Part shown: positions 4,969-44,001 of the stretch, one piece after another | How positions within the stretch are numbered: position 1 is the stretch's first letter | Layout: every line of letters begins with the position of its first letter | From: Klenkia taihuensis | GTDB lineage: Bacteria > Actinomycetota > Actinomycetes > Mycobacteriales > Geodermatophilaceae | Direction: 5' to 3' | NCBI RefSeq assembly: GCF_900112525.1 | Contig: NZ_FOMD01000004.1 | Span: 248,001 to 312,000 of the forward strand | Length of the DNA: 64,000 nt | Position numbers and translations under genes: made by a program | Notes under the pieces: model-generated | Seen by the model: the letters and a program-made list of their open reading frames with translations, nothing else | The model's database searches: none | Told to the model about the DNA's origin: nothing

Positions 4969-5381
4969 CGACGGACGAGTCGGCTGGGCGGTCGCGTCGG
5001 CGGGGGAGACCCCGTCGCCGAGGAACGTCCGGGCTCCACAGGGCAGGGTGGTCGCCAACAGCGACCCGGGGTGACCCGCGGGACAGTGCCACAGAGAACA
5101 GACCGCCAGTGCTCGCACTGGTAAGGGTGAAACGGTGGTGCAAGAGACCACCAGCGCACCGGGTGACCGGTGCGGCTCGGTAAACCCCACCCGGAGCAAG
5201 GTCAGGAAGGGCCCCCGGTTCGCCGGGGACCCGCGGAGGCGTTCGAGGGCTGCCCGCCCGAGTCTCCGGGTAGACCGCTCGAGCCTGCCGGCAACGGCAG
5301 GCCTAGATGGATGACCGCCCACCGGGACCGCCGCGAGGCGCCCGGGGACAGAACCCGGCGTACAGGCCGACTCGTCCGTCG
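4969..5381 (+). ncRNA. rnpB: RNase P RNA, bacterial class A
   Basis: The catalytic RNA of RNase P, which removes 5' leaders from tRNA precursors. The ends pair as helix P1: 4969-4984 (CGACGGACGAGTCGGC) is the exact reverse complement of 5366-5381. Between them are the conserved core blocks GAGGAACGTCCGGGCTCC, CACAGAGAACAGACCGCC, GTAAGGGTGAAACGGTG, CAAGAGACCACCAGC, AGATGGATGACCGCC and GGACAGAACCCGGCGTACAG in the correct order. The length of about 413 bases fits actinobacterial RNase P RNAs. Ends are set from the P1 helix and could differ by a few bases. Confidence 0.97.
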
Positions 5382-40061: not shown

Positions 40062-41012
40062 GTGCGCGCCGACCGGTTGATCGCCGTCCTGCTGCTCCTG
40101 CAGCGGCGCGGCACGGTGACGGCCGGCCAGGTGGCCGGCGAGCTGGAGATCTCCCCGCGCACCGCCCGCCGGGACCTGGAGGCGCTCGCGCTGGCCGGGG
40201 TGCCGGTCTACAGCACCGCGGGCAAGGGCGGCGGCTGGTCGCTGGTCGGTGGGGCGCGCACCGACCTGACCGGGCTCACCGAGGGCGAGGCCCGCGCGCT
40301 GTTCCTGGGCACCGGGGTCGGGGACACCCCGGCGGCCCGCGCGGGGCTGCGCAAGCTGCTGGCCGCACTGCCCGCGCAGTGGCGCGCCGACGCCGAGCGG
40401 GCCGCCGACGCCGTCCTGGTGGACGCCGCCTCCTGGGGCGCCGAGCCGCAGCCCGAGCCGCCGTCCCTCGCCGTCCTGCTGCGCGCGGTGGTCGACGGCG
40501 AGCAGGTCGAGCTCGACTACCGCAGCCGCGGCACGGCCAGCACCCGCACCGTCGACCCGCTGGGCCTGGTGAACAAGGACGGCCGCTGGTACCTGCTCGC
40601 CGGCACGCCGGCGGGGGAGCGCACCTTCCGGCTGGACCGGGTGGTCGCCGCCTCGCCGACCGGGGCACCGGCCCGCCGTCCCGAGGGCTTCGACCTGCGC
40701 CGGGCGTGGGCCGCGCGGCGCGGGGAGTTCGAGCAGCAGCGGCACGTCGAGCGCACCCGGGTGCTCGTCGAGCCGGCCGCGCTGCCGCGGCTGCGGTGGC
40801 TGCTGGCCCACCGGCTGGTCGAGGTGGGCGAGCCGGGCGCGGACGGCCGGGTGCCCGCCGTCGTCCTGGGGCCGGTGGCCGAGGTGGTCGCCCTGGAGCT
40901 CGCCGGCTTCGGCGACCGCGTGGAGTTCACCGACCCCGCCGCCCGCGCGCAGCTGGCCCGGCTGGCCGCCGAGCTGCATTCCCGGTACGGATCCGGCCCG
41001 GGTGCGGGGTAA
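40062..41012 (+). CDS. HTH and WYL domain transcriptional regulator
   Basis: A 316-residue regulator. Residues 1-55 form a DeoR/HTH_11-type DNA-binding domain (LLQRRGTVTAGQVAGELEIS, then PRTARRDLEAL). The central WYL domain (about 145-215) contains VELDYRSRG and KDGRWYLLAGTP, a likely ligand-sensing fold, and a WCX C-terminal extension follows. It probably represses itself and the divergent TIGR03086 gene. GTG 40062 is 7 bases after CAGAAT, suggesting a leaderless message. Its stop codon overlaps the promoter of the leuS leader. Confidence 0.87.
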   Translation: MRADRLIAVLLLLQRRGTVTAGQVAGELEISPRTARRDLEALALAGVPVYSTAGKGGGWSLVGGARTDLTGLTEGEARALFLGTGVGDTPAARAGLRKLLAALPAQWRADAERAADAVLVDAASWGAEPQPEPPSLAVLLRAVVDGEQVELDYRSRGTASTRTVDPLGLVNKDGRWYLLAGTPAGERTFRLDRVVAASPTGAPARRPEGFDLRRAWAARRGEFEQQRHVERTRVLVEPAALPRLRWLLAHRLVEVGEPGADGRVPAVVLGPVAEVVALELAGFGDRVEFTDPAARAQLARLAAELHSRYGSGPGAG

Positions 41013-41015
41013 CCT
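41010..41015 (+). promoter_or_regulatory. -10 box of the leuS leader
   Basis: TAACCT ends 6 bases before the GTG of the Leu-rich leader peptide at 41022, the same spacing as other leaderless genes in this window. It overlaps the stop codon of the WYL regulator gene. Confidence 0.55.
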
Positions 41016-41021
41016 CGCGGT

Positions 41022-41057
41022 GTGACCGGTGGCCTGCTCCTTCCGAGGCCGTGCTGA
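41022..41057 (+). CDS. leuS leader peptide with three Leu codons
   Basis: An 11-codon frame reading [11 protein letters not shown] (GTG start, TGA stop), with three consecutive Leu codons CTG CTC CTT at 41034-41042. It would let ribosome stalling during leucyl-tRNA shortage control transcription into leuS. The GTG lies 6 bases after TAACCT, so it would be the first codon of a leaderless transcript. Too short for gene finders; support is positional: the hairpin and terminator directly follow. Confidence 0.65.
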
Positions 41058-41108
41058 CCCGCTCCCCGCACGTCAGCACGGCGACCCCTCCTGCGTGAGG
41101 GGTTTTTT
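41048..41108 (+). promoter_or_regulatory. leuS attenuator: stop-codon hairpin plus intrinsic terminator
   Basis: First, CCGTGCTGAC (41049-41058), containing the leader stop codon, pairs exactly with GTCAGCACGG (41072-41081), extended by one more G-C pair. Second, ACCCTC-type stem ACCCCTC (41084-41090) pairs with GAGGGGT (41097-41103) over a 6-base loop and runs into six T (41103-41108), a classical intrinsic terminator, 40 bases before the leuS start. A terminator with a T tract is exceptional in this GC-rich window. Which alternative pairing disables it is not obvious by eye. Confidence 0.7.
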
Positions 41109-41148
41109 CATGCCCACCACCGGCAGCGACACCCAGGAGCCGAAGACG

Positions 41149-44001
41149 ATGAGCGAGACCGTCCCCCCGCACCGGTACACCCCGGAGCTGGCCCAGCAGA
41201 TCGAGCTGGCCTGGCAGGACCGGTGGGAGGCCGAGGGCACCTTCGCCACGCCCAACCCCACCGGGACGCTGAGCGGGGGGTTCGACCGCGTCGCCGACCG
41301 GCCCAAGGCCTTCCTGATGGACATGTTCCCCTACCCCTCGGGGGCGGGGCTGCACGTCGGGCACCCGCTGGGCTACCTGGGCACCGACGTCACCAGCCGC
41401 TTCCTGCGCATGGACGGCCACAACGTGCTGCACCCGATGGGCTACGACGCCTTCGGCCTGCCCGCCGAGCAGTACGCCGTGCAGACCGGCCAGCACCCCC
41501 GGGTGACCACCGAGGCCAACATCGCGGCCATCTCCGCGCAGCTGCGCCGGCTGGGCGTCGACCACGACCGTCGCCGCACCTTCGCCACCATCGACCCGGG
41601 CTACTACAAGTGGACCCAGTGGATCTTCACCCAGATCTTCGGTGCCTGGTTCGACGACGTCGCCGGCAAGGCCCGCCCGATCGAGGAACTGGTCACCGAG
41701 CTGGACGCCGGGACCCGGCAGCCCGCCCCCGGCACCCTGCCCGACGGGACCTCCTGGGCCGATCTCGACGAGGTCGGGCGGCGCCGGGTCGTCGACGCGC
41801 ACCGCCTGGCCTACCTGAACCAGGCCCCGGTCAACTGGTGCCCCGGGCTGGGCACGGTGCTGAGCAACGAGGAGGTCACCGCCGACGGGCGCTCCGAGCG
41901 CGGCAACTTCCCCGTCTTCCGGCGCCCGCTGACCCAGTGGATGATGCGGATCACCGCCTACTCCGAGCGGCTGCTGGCCGACCTGGACCGGCTGGACTGG
42001 TCGGACTCCCTGAAGCAGATGCAGCGCAACTGGATCGGCCGTTCGCGCGGTGCCCGGGTCCGGTTCGGCGACGTCGAGGTGTTCACCACCCGCCCGGACA
42101 CCCTGTTCGGCGCCACCTACCTGGTGCTGGCCCCCGAGCACCCGCTGGTCGCCTCGCTGACCGCGTCGGCCTGGCCCGACGGCACCGACCCGCGCTGGAC
42201 CGGCGGCGCCGGCACCCCGGCCGAGGCGGTCGCGGCCTACCAGCTGCAGGCCTCGCGCCGCTCCGAGCTGGACCGGCAGGCCGAGGGCCGGGAGAAGACC
42301 GGCGTGTGGACAGGCTCGTACGCGACCAACCCGCTGACCGGCCGCGAGCTGCCCGTCTTCGTCGCCGACTACGTGCTGACCGGCTACGGCACCGGCGCGA
42401 TCATGGCCGTGCCCGGCGAGGACACCCGCGACTTCGAGTTCGCCGACGTGTTCGGCCTGCCCGTGGTGCGCACCGTGCAGCCGCCGGAGGGTTTCGAGGG
42501 CGGGGCGTACACCGGCGCCGGCCCGATGATCAACAGCTCGAACGAGCACGTGCAGCTGGACGGCCTGGACAAGGCCGAGGCCATCGCGGCGGTCACCGAC
42601 TGGCTGGTCGCGCACGGGCACGGCGAGTCCACCACCACCTACAAGCTGCGCGACTGGCTGTTCAGCCGGCAGCGCTACTGGGGAGAGCCGTTCCCGGTCG
42701 TGTACGCCGTCGACGGCCCGGACGCCGACCTGCCGGTCGCCGTCCCCGCCGACCAGCTGCCCGTGCTGCTGCCCGACGTCGACGACTACTCCCCGACGAC
42801 CTTCGCCGACGACGACGCGACGTCCTCCCCGGAGCCGCCGCTGTCGCGGGCCACCGAGTGGACGACGGTCGCGCTGGACCTGGGCGACGGGCCGCGCCGC
42901 TACCGCCGCGAGACCAACACGATGCCCAACTGGGCCGGGTCGTGCTGGTACTACCTGCGCTACCTGGACCCGGCGAACGACGAGCAGTTCGTCGACCCGG
43001 AGCTGGAGGCCTACTGGATGGGGCCGCGCTCCGAGGGCGACGTCGGCGGCGTCGACCTGTACGTCGGCGGCGTCGAGCACGCGGTGCTGCACCTGCTGTA
43101 CGCGCGCTTCTGGCACAAGGTGCTGTTCGACCTGGGCCACGTGTCCTCGGAGGAGCCGTTCCGCCGGCTGGTCAACCAGGGCTACATCTCGGCCTACGCC
43201 TACACCGACGCGCGCGGCTTCTACGTGCCCGCCGCCGAGGTCGTCGAGAAGGACGGCGCCTTCTTCTTCGAGGGCCAGCCGGTCAACCGCGAGTACGGGA
43301 AGATCGGCAAGAGCCTGAAGAACATGGTGACCCCCGACGAGATGATCGGGGCCTACGGCGCGGACACCTTCCGGGTCTACGAGATGTCCACCGGGCCGCT
43401 GGAGCAGTCCCGCCCGTGGGAGACCAAGGCGGTCGTGGGCTCGCAGCGGCTGCTGCAGCGGATCTGGCGCGTGGTCGTCGACGAGGAGACCGGGGAGGTC
43501 CGGGCCGCCGACGTCGAGGTCGCCTCCGAGACGCTCAAGGTGCTGCACCGGGCCGTCGACGGCGTCCGCGACGGCATGACCACGCTGCGGTTCAACATCG
43601 CCATCGCCCGCACCACCGAGCTGACCAACCACCTGACCCAGGTGTACGGCCAGTCCGGGCCGGTGCCGCGGCAGGTCGCCGAGTGGCTGACCCTGCTGGT
43701 CGCGCCGCTGGCCCCGCACCTGGCCGAGGAGCTGTGGTCGCGGCTGGGCCACCAGGGGTCCTCGGCGTGGGCCCCGTTCCCGGTGGCCGACCCCGCCTAC
43801 CTGGTCGACGACACCGTGCAGATCGCGGTGCAGGTCAACGGCAAGGTGCGGGCGCAGCTGGACGTGCCCGCCGACGCCGACGCCGCCGCGCTGGAGGCCG
43901 CCGCGCTGGCCGACGCCCGGATCGCGGAGCTGCTGGCGGGCAAGACGGTGCGCAAGGTGGTCGCGGTGCCCGGCCGCCTGGTCAACGTCGTCGCCGGCTG
44001 A
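41149..44001 (+). CDS. leuS: leucyl-tRNA synthetase
   Basis: A 950-residue class I synthetase charging tRNA-Leu. [16 protein letters not shown] contains the HIGH-type motif [15 protein letters not shown] holds the KMSKS-type loop (KIGKS variant common in actinobacterial LeuRS). An editing CP1 domain ([33 protein letters not shown]) and C-terminal anticodon domain are present. The start is ATG 41149, with AGGAG 9 bases upstream; an in-frame ATG at 41110 directly follows the terminator T tract and has no ribosome site. Expression probably depends on the upstream attenuator. Confidence 0.97.

Follow-up and report, generated by a model that had tools for sequence, protein, structure and literature searches.

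Putative leucine attenuators of leuS: a leader with adjoining hairpins in Klenkia taihuensis and its spread across actinobacteria

A leucine-codon leader precedes leuS in Klenkia taihuensis

The gene for leucine--tRNA ligase (leuS) of Klenkia taihuensis, located in a 64,000-nucleotide stretch of contig NZ_FOMD01000004.1 (here referred to as the window, whose coordinates are used throughout for the leader region), is preceded by a short leader that very probably acts as a leucine-responsive, ribosome-mediated transcription attenuator. A short open reading frame (ORF) with a run of Leu codons stands before the LeuS gene, an intrinsic terminator lies between this leader and the gene, and geometry together with constrained folding predicts an alternative hairpin that would depend on ribosome position. 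Attenuation of leuS has been published for a few Streptomyces species, and the leader described here was found commonly across the actinomycetes.

A preliminary description, made from sequence alone, had read the region in front of leuS as a leucine attenuator with a leaderless leader peptide, and all of the elements that it listed were found where it had placed them, on the + strand. A -10 hexamer, TAACCT (of the form TAnnnT; 41010..41015), takes its first bases from the TAA stop codon of the upstream gene. The leader peptide frame (41022..41057; 11 codons plus stop, identified from the sequence, alignment A1, and the parse described below) starts with a GTG located 6 nucleotides (nt) downstream of the hexamer, a leaderless type of start, and this promoter spacing places the predicted start of the transcript at or next to the leader GTG. 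A sigma-70 consensus scan of 40900-41300 found no promoter. The three regulatory Leu codons revealed by the parse, CTG CTC CTT (41034..41042), are followed by a 5-nt spacer (41043..41047) and then by arm A of hairpin 1 (41048..41058; sequence, folding, and covariation), which includes the leader stop codon in this species. Arm B (41072..41082; sequence and folding) adjoins the terminator. The stem of hairpin 1 has 11 bp, in line with the 10 to 11 bp first described. The intrinsic terminator (41083..41104; folding and covariation, with termination predicted), previously credited with a 7-bp stem, pairs 41083-41090 with 41097-41104, which makes 8 pairs with the basal G-U included. On that count it directly abuts the stem of hairpin 1, and leaving out the G-U puts 1 nt between the stems. 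A U-tract of six T residues (41103..41108) completes the terminator, and leuS has its own ribosome-binding site, AGGAG (41135..41139). The leuS gene itself (41149..44001, with an ATG start at 41149) matched TIGR00396 (E value, 2.7e-256), and, among the LeuS proteins retrieved, the closest named one was that of Klenkia brasiliensis (96% identity).

The minimum-energy fold holds both hairpins (-42 kcal/mol), and none of 200 shuffled sequences folded as well. In the terminator loop (41091-41096), the sequence C-T-G-N-G-Y is kept in most rows of alignment A1, beyond what a terminator needs.

The leader is conserved with leuS

A covariance model (R1), built from 41 elements of both the Geodermatophilaceae and Streptomyces groups, matched 111 of 112 Geodermatophilaceae genomes, among them all 96 near-complete ones. 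The single family genome without a match is 73% complete. Matches were also detected in 204 of 298 genomes of the order and in 168 of 394 genomes of the class, in 71 of 138 genera; the searches used strict filters, with which some weak matches were lost. Thus, the leuS attenuator, as recognized by its predicted structure, is common in actinobacteria, and its spread and anatomy are the new part.

LeuS starts with M-S-[EQ]-T, as read by eye in 13 Geodermatophilaceae LeuS loci (L001-L013). These loci have the same order of elements before leuS, and the DNA farther upstream differs. A LeuS motif was present in the same stretch at 74 of 79 loci fetched around R1 matches, which were picked for diversity, several because a genome had two matches, and are not a random sample. 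Four of the remaining five have cimA, and the fifth (L158) ends with its contig.

The pattern parse accepted 99 elements among 110 LeuS loci (80 plus 30); the locus of the Klenkia genome itself (L089) was left out of this parse, and L024 is without a leuS start. Two further loci (L105 and L106) carry an element that the pattern missed and R1 matched. R1 was run against 99 of the 110 loci, and seven LeuS loci had no R1 match (L015, L025, L054, L058, L071, L077, and L078). At five of these seven attenuator-lacking loci (L015, L025, L054, L058, and L077), from Amycolatopsis acididurans and four Aeromicrobium, a TAnnnT hexamer lies 6 to 7 nt before an in-frame GTG of leuS, and leuS itself looks leaderless there.

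Geometry and covariation of the leader

Parsing of 173 aligned rows gave 164 leuS rows and, once identical elements were merged, 157 distinct leuS elements, 84 from loci fetched by LeuS protein and 72 obtained through the model. Eight rows were not parsed: four leuS rows (L104, L142, L179, and L187) in which the outer arm departs from GCCG or the gap differs, three cimA rows (L160, L178, and L185), and a spurious reverse match (L114). A fourth cimA row, L186, was excluded as well. The parse required no Leu codon. Of the three codons in the register that stops 5 nt short of arm A, the first encodes Leu in 141 of the distinct elements and the second and third do so in all 157. The third is CTT in 145 elements, CTC in 11, and CTG in 1; none of the 82 Leu codons in the Klenkia LeuS gene is CTT. 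Even in L005, which has a longer Leu run, the distance from CTT to arm A is unchanged.

The position of the leader stop codon is variable (-2 in 7 elements, +7 in 139, and +10 to +25 in 11). Because the stop codon begins before arm A in the first 7, coding does not explain why arm A is constant. The span from arm A to arm B also varies, from 21 to 87. The gap between arm B and the terminator is 3 nt or less in 153 of 157 elements when the best terminator is searched over 0 to 40 nt with no penalty, and it is 0 in 108 elements counting basal G-U pairs or in 46 without them. We relied on this free search, since an earlier parse that demanded GCCG and gaps of 0 to 4 constrained the gaps that it returned (0, 1, 2, and 3 nt in 125, 23, 6, and 3 elements, or in 52, 83, 17, and 5 with Watson-Crick closing pairs). 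In 156 of 157 elements a TAnnnT hexamer precedes the leader start by 6 to 9 nt, and in 151 by 6 or 7 nt, the start codon having been picked as one with TAnnnT 3 to 10 nt ahead. This spacing, like the leaderless LeuL2 of Streptomyces lividans (PMC8079986), favors the leaderless start first proposed for Klenkia.

Covariation was evaluated on a diverse set (A2) of 80 matches, 4 of them cimA, which were fitted to the model, so that counts lean somewhat towards structure. In A2, 14 of 17 pairs changed on both sides, with 129 doubly changed cells compared to a shuffled mean of 28.3; none of 500 shuffles reached this number, and sliding the partner by 1 to 3 columns gave at most 14. In the smaller alignment A1 (41 sequences), there were 27 doubly changed cells compared to 10.0 in shuffles, and both the cells and the covariation score exceeded all 500 shuffles. 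Neither the shuffles nor the sliding take phylogeny into account. Among the least variable pairs are the outer four of hairpin 1, beside the terminator, where 75 to 79 of the 80 rows keep the commonest pair. Leu codons in one register and covarying stems in the diverse set are the conservation that the preliminary description had called for, and with the conserved anatomy they support its reading of a ribosome-mediated leucine attenuator before leuS.

The upstream gene (40062..41012, + strand, from the ORF list) encodes a WYL-domain regulator with a helix-turn-helix domain (Pfam PF13280 WYL, E value of 6.9e-18, and HTH_11) and had no NCBIfam match. Its stop codon is only ∼70 nt upstream of the terminator stem, as would suit an unregulated terminator of the WYL gene accompanied by a chance ORF. 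Conservation makes this explanation extremely improbable: the element stays with leuS while the upstream DNA differs between genera, and the Leu register and TAnnnT spacing are conserved. The + strand of the window contains 13 TAnnnT hexamers. Scanning 467 kb of the Klenkia genome (the window, 400 kb of contig 10, and loci L258 and L265) for TAnnnT, a short ORF, a hairpin, and a terminator 0 to 3 nt beyond gave one match, the leuS leader, compared to 2 from shuffled sequence (20 passes of 464 kb). Relaxing the hexamer gave two matches, the leuS and cimA leaders, compared to 15 in 20 shuffled passes; the ilvB leader was missed with either hexamer. That the leuS element is real and beyond chance follows from its conservation in 111 of 112 family genomes.

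What the ribosome could change

In the proposed mechanism, a 70S ribosome would load on the leaderless 5' end of the transcript and read the Leu codons. When Leu-tRNA is sufficient, it would reach the stop codon and cover arm A, the terminator would form, and transcription would end near 41108. A shortage of Leu-tRNA would stall the ribosome once the first Leu codon occupies the A site; owing to the 5-nt spacer, arm A would then lie just outside the stalled ribosome, hairpin 1 would form, and RNA polymerase would read through into leuS.

The footprint of a ribosome extends ∼15 nt beyond the first base in the P site. For a ribosome that has the first Leu codon in its A site, this limit falls just before arm A. 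At the stop codon the ribosome covers arm A, and in this window both arm B and the terminator lie out of its reach. From these positions, hairpin 1 is thus the only structure that the ribosome can alter. Constrained folding of 156 of the 157 elements (L144, cut by a contig end, was omitted) gave a median probability for the pairing of arms A and B of 1.0 with the ribosome at the first Leu codon and of 0 with arm A covered, a value set by the mask. This was the sole pairing that changed much across the folding states.

Because the pairing of arms A and B responds to the ribosome and stands beside the terminator without shared bases, we infer, on physical reasoning, that hairpin 1 would hinder closure of the terminator base sterically. 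A helix at the 5' side of the terminator base could not enter the RNA exit channel of the polymerase, and the last terminator pairs would fail to close beside hairpin 1. No published mechanism of steric abutment was found in searches of the open-access literature, where the titles listed dealt with antitermination proteins, riboswitches, and Nun.

Several observations weigh against attenuation by this route. The probability of the terminator was greater than 0.9 in 145 of 156 elements when folded freely, in 150 of 156 with the sequence before arm A masked, and in 142 of 156 when a ribosome was placed at the stop codon, so that no switch is predicted from thermodynamics alone. It is the third Leu codon that is conserved as a rare codon, and stalling at this position would put ∼5 nt of arm A under the ribosome. 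Alignment A1 has only 2 doubly changed pairs, a number reached by 392 of 500 shuffles. No R1 match was obtained in 226 of the 394 class genomes, at least 20 of which belong to one family (f8). Finally, codon substitutions in the ilvB leader of Streptomyces coelicolor were reported to be without effect (cited in PMC1262725). Counting on the other side, replacement of the Leu-Val-Val-Ile codons with Ala codons (LVVI to AAAA) in Mycobacterium ilvB1 left a low, dose-independent reporter (PMC13236596).

In a classical attenuator, hairpin 1, or an extension of it, would take bases of the 5' arm of the terminator. The leuS elements of Streptomyces have been termed classical, with antiterminator and terminator hairpins (PMC1262725), and in the ilvBNC leader of Corynebacterium glutamicum the bases of adjacent hairpins overlap by three bases, GCC (PMC11857589). 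In the leuS elements analyzed here, hairpin 1 and the terminator share no bases, and the mutual exclusion of a classical attenuator was not found. Of 157 elements, 132 allowed no outward extension of the pairing of arms A and B, 19 extended by 1 pair, 5 by 2, and 1 by 3. Capture of terminator bases past a small interior loop was possible in 11 of 157, compared to 11.0 in a control in which spacers were redealt, and the high probability of the terminator in most elements in all three ribosome states also speaks against competition between the hairpins. It is thus unlikely that the leader is a classical attenuator. The initial statement that all elements of an attenuator are present was too strong, because no antiterminator sharing bases was found; the folding that it proposed revealed no competing structure with terminator bases.

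A longer antiterminator, formed before the 3' arm of the terminator is made, was also rejected: the 5' arm was over half paired in 17 of 156 elements, so that such a structure is not general.

Leader hairpins serve as pause signals in classical attenuators, and hairpin 1 might have this function only, detaining RNA polymerase until the ribosome arrives, with the choice made by other means, for example, by arm B touching the conserved loop of the terminator. In many sequences C-R-C-G of arm B can, by eye, face N-G-Y-G of the loop, and the loop sequence is itself kept in most A1 rows. L113 and L115 are exceptions to this pairing. A pause role needs no arm B beside the terminator, whereas arm B keeps within 3 nt of it in 153 of 157 elements while the span between the arms varies from 21 to 87, which makes this explanation improbable. 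The small gap between the hairpins would also permit coaxial stacking of hairpin 1 on the terminator, which would strengthen the terminator, so that stalling would turn leuS off. Expression of leuS would then be lowered when leucyl-tRNA is short, the reverse of the direction in which other synthetase attenuators and T-boxes respond, and stacking with this outcome seems very improbable.

Similar leaders before cimA and ilvB

R1 also matched genes other than leuS. In four genomes it detected a leader with Ile codons before cimA, the gene for citramalate synthase, whose identity was supported by TIGR00977, the top-ranking model for the single fragment examined. In Klenkia, the corresponding leader (contig 10, 1464961-1465046; L258:562-648, with relatives in L199-L264) encodes MHTTGTITIT, followed by the arms GCGCGCAGTC / GACTGCGCGC, and TIGR00977 was the best match for the 69 residues of cimA tested. 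A second model (R2), built from 25 cimA-type sequences with double changes in 8 of 20 pairs, matched 108 of the 112 genomes of the family and 222 of the 394 of the class, tallies that mix cimA, ilvB, and a few leuS elements; R1 and R2 match some of each other's places. Among 62 cimA places, the spacing from the end of an Ile codon to the arm is exactly 5 nt in 45 and 8 nt in 6. The other 11 fit neither spacing, several by one base that depends on the choice of arm start, and the cimA register is looser than that of leuS. The gap to the terminator was 0 in 48 of 54 parsed cimA elements (gaps of 0 to 3 were allowed), and the probability of the terminator was greater than 0.9 in all 54 when folded freely and in 53 with arm A masked. 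Among 70 R2 places, 11 were not parsed (8 cimA and 3 ilvB). These features point to a putative isoleucine-type attenuator before cimA with geometry similar to that of leuS. No earlier report of a cimA leader was found in searches of the open-access literature; judged by title and the opening of the abstract, the papers retrieved dealt with other subjects.

Most family genomes have a second R2 match, which precedes ilvB in the eight genomes inspected. The gene was identified as acetolactate synthase by model in Klenkia and by translated frame or position in the other seven. The Klenkia ilvB leader (contig 10, 1453240-1453331; L265:341-432, with relatives in L266-L272) encodes MLRSALLVVID and has codons for Leu, Val, and Ile. 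In all eight leaders, 5 nt separate the final Ile or Val codon from a GCGC arm, as read with a pattern that places the arm start after TA, and the hairpin is ∼2 nt from the terminator in Klenkia. The automatic parse failed on three of the eight ilvB leaders and shifted the register in four; the folding values derived from it (probability greater than 0.9 in none of 5, with a median of 0.6 in all states) were discarded because the parsed pairs were wrong. By eye, the ilvB leader codons CUCCUCGU are complementary to the 3' arm of the terminator, ACGAGGGG.

Largely, then, much the same plan as that of leuS is predicted before cimA (Ile) and ilvB (Leu/Val/Ile) in the Klenkia genome. Possibly, though we propose it only tentatively, the three genes share a distinct actinobacterial architecture, with a noncompeting hairpin and a steric block, in which a regulatory codon is followed after ∼5 nt by a GC-rich arm A and arm B lies 0 to 3 nt from the terminator. 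Three such elements in one genome and a CTT fixed at one position make direct tests possible.

Other RNA features of the window

The sole Rfam match in the window at the gathering threshold was a bacterial class A RNase P RNA (4976-5378; RF00010, 270 bits). No T-box was matched in the window at this threshold or in 40900-41300 at E values up to 10. Unrelated families gave matches below the threshold in the leader region and at three of six loci, and these were taken as chance.

Comparison with known systems

The enterobacterial trp, his, and leu attenuators work by the same logic of a stalled ribosome, a choice between hairpins, and a terminator. There, one strand is common to antiterminator and terminator, and the leaders have Shine-Dalgarno sequences. 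The predicted hairpin 1 of the leuS leaders, which adjoins the terminator without base overlap, appears to be a new anatomical variant.

The preliminary description knew of no such arrangement for leuS, but leuS attenuators were predicted in 2005 in S. coelicolor and Streptomyces avermitilis (Seliverstov et al., PMC1262725). Furthermore, the 2021 reannotation of S. lividans TK24 with transcriptome sequencing (RNA-seq) reported that LeuL2, MRAVRLLLSEPR, is transcribed leaderless before leuS (PMC8079986), with a mean distance of 6.3 nt from the -10 hexamer to mapped starts in that organism. The leuS attenuator is thus already known in Streptomyces, and the interpretation of the Klenkia leader holds while its novelty does not. 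No further actinobacterial report of leuS attenuation appeared among the papers listed in searches of the open-access literature; by term search, a paper on Corynebacterium ilvB-II (PMC10272879) mentions neither leuS nor cimA, and PMC2965389 does not mention leuS.

The Streptomyces LeuL2 leader corresponds to the Klenkia element in its gene, its leader with Leu-Leu-Leu, its leaderless start, its hairpin, and its U-stretch (PMC1262725; PMC8079986). The LeuL2 peptide MRAVRLLLSEPR was also read from many Streptomyces loci in this analysis, and R1 finds the leuS elements of both Streptomyces and Geodermatophilaceae. The Klenkia element differs in taxon, in its 11-residue peptide, in a shorter span between arms A and B, and in arm A, which is GCCGTGC in Klenkia and GCCGCGC in Streptomyces rows. 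The Streptomyces attenuator was printed as classical (PMC1262725), whereas shared bases were not found here.

Leaders before ilvB have been predicted in several genera, with the mode of action unclear (PMC1262725). In C. glutamicum ilvBNC, as in leuS, the base of the antiterminator hairpin, which forms on stalling, is adjacent to the base of the terminator; unlike in leuS, the two hairpins overlap at a trinucleotide (PMC11857589). The Mycobacterium ilvB1 leader also has branched-chain amino acid codons (LVVI), and its structures, unlike those of leuS, are called mutually exclusive (PMC13236596). The LEU element of actinobacterial leuA resembles the leuS leader in placing Leu codons before a leucine gene, but it is described as a pseudoknot in which the Leu codons pair with the Shine-Dalgarno box (PMC1262725), and the leuA leader is noted to be without a typical terminator (PMC8079986).

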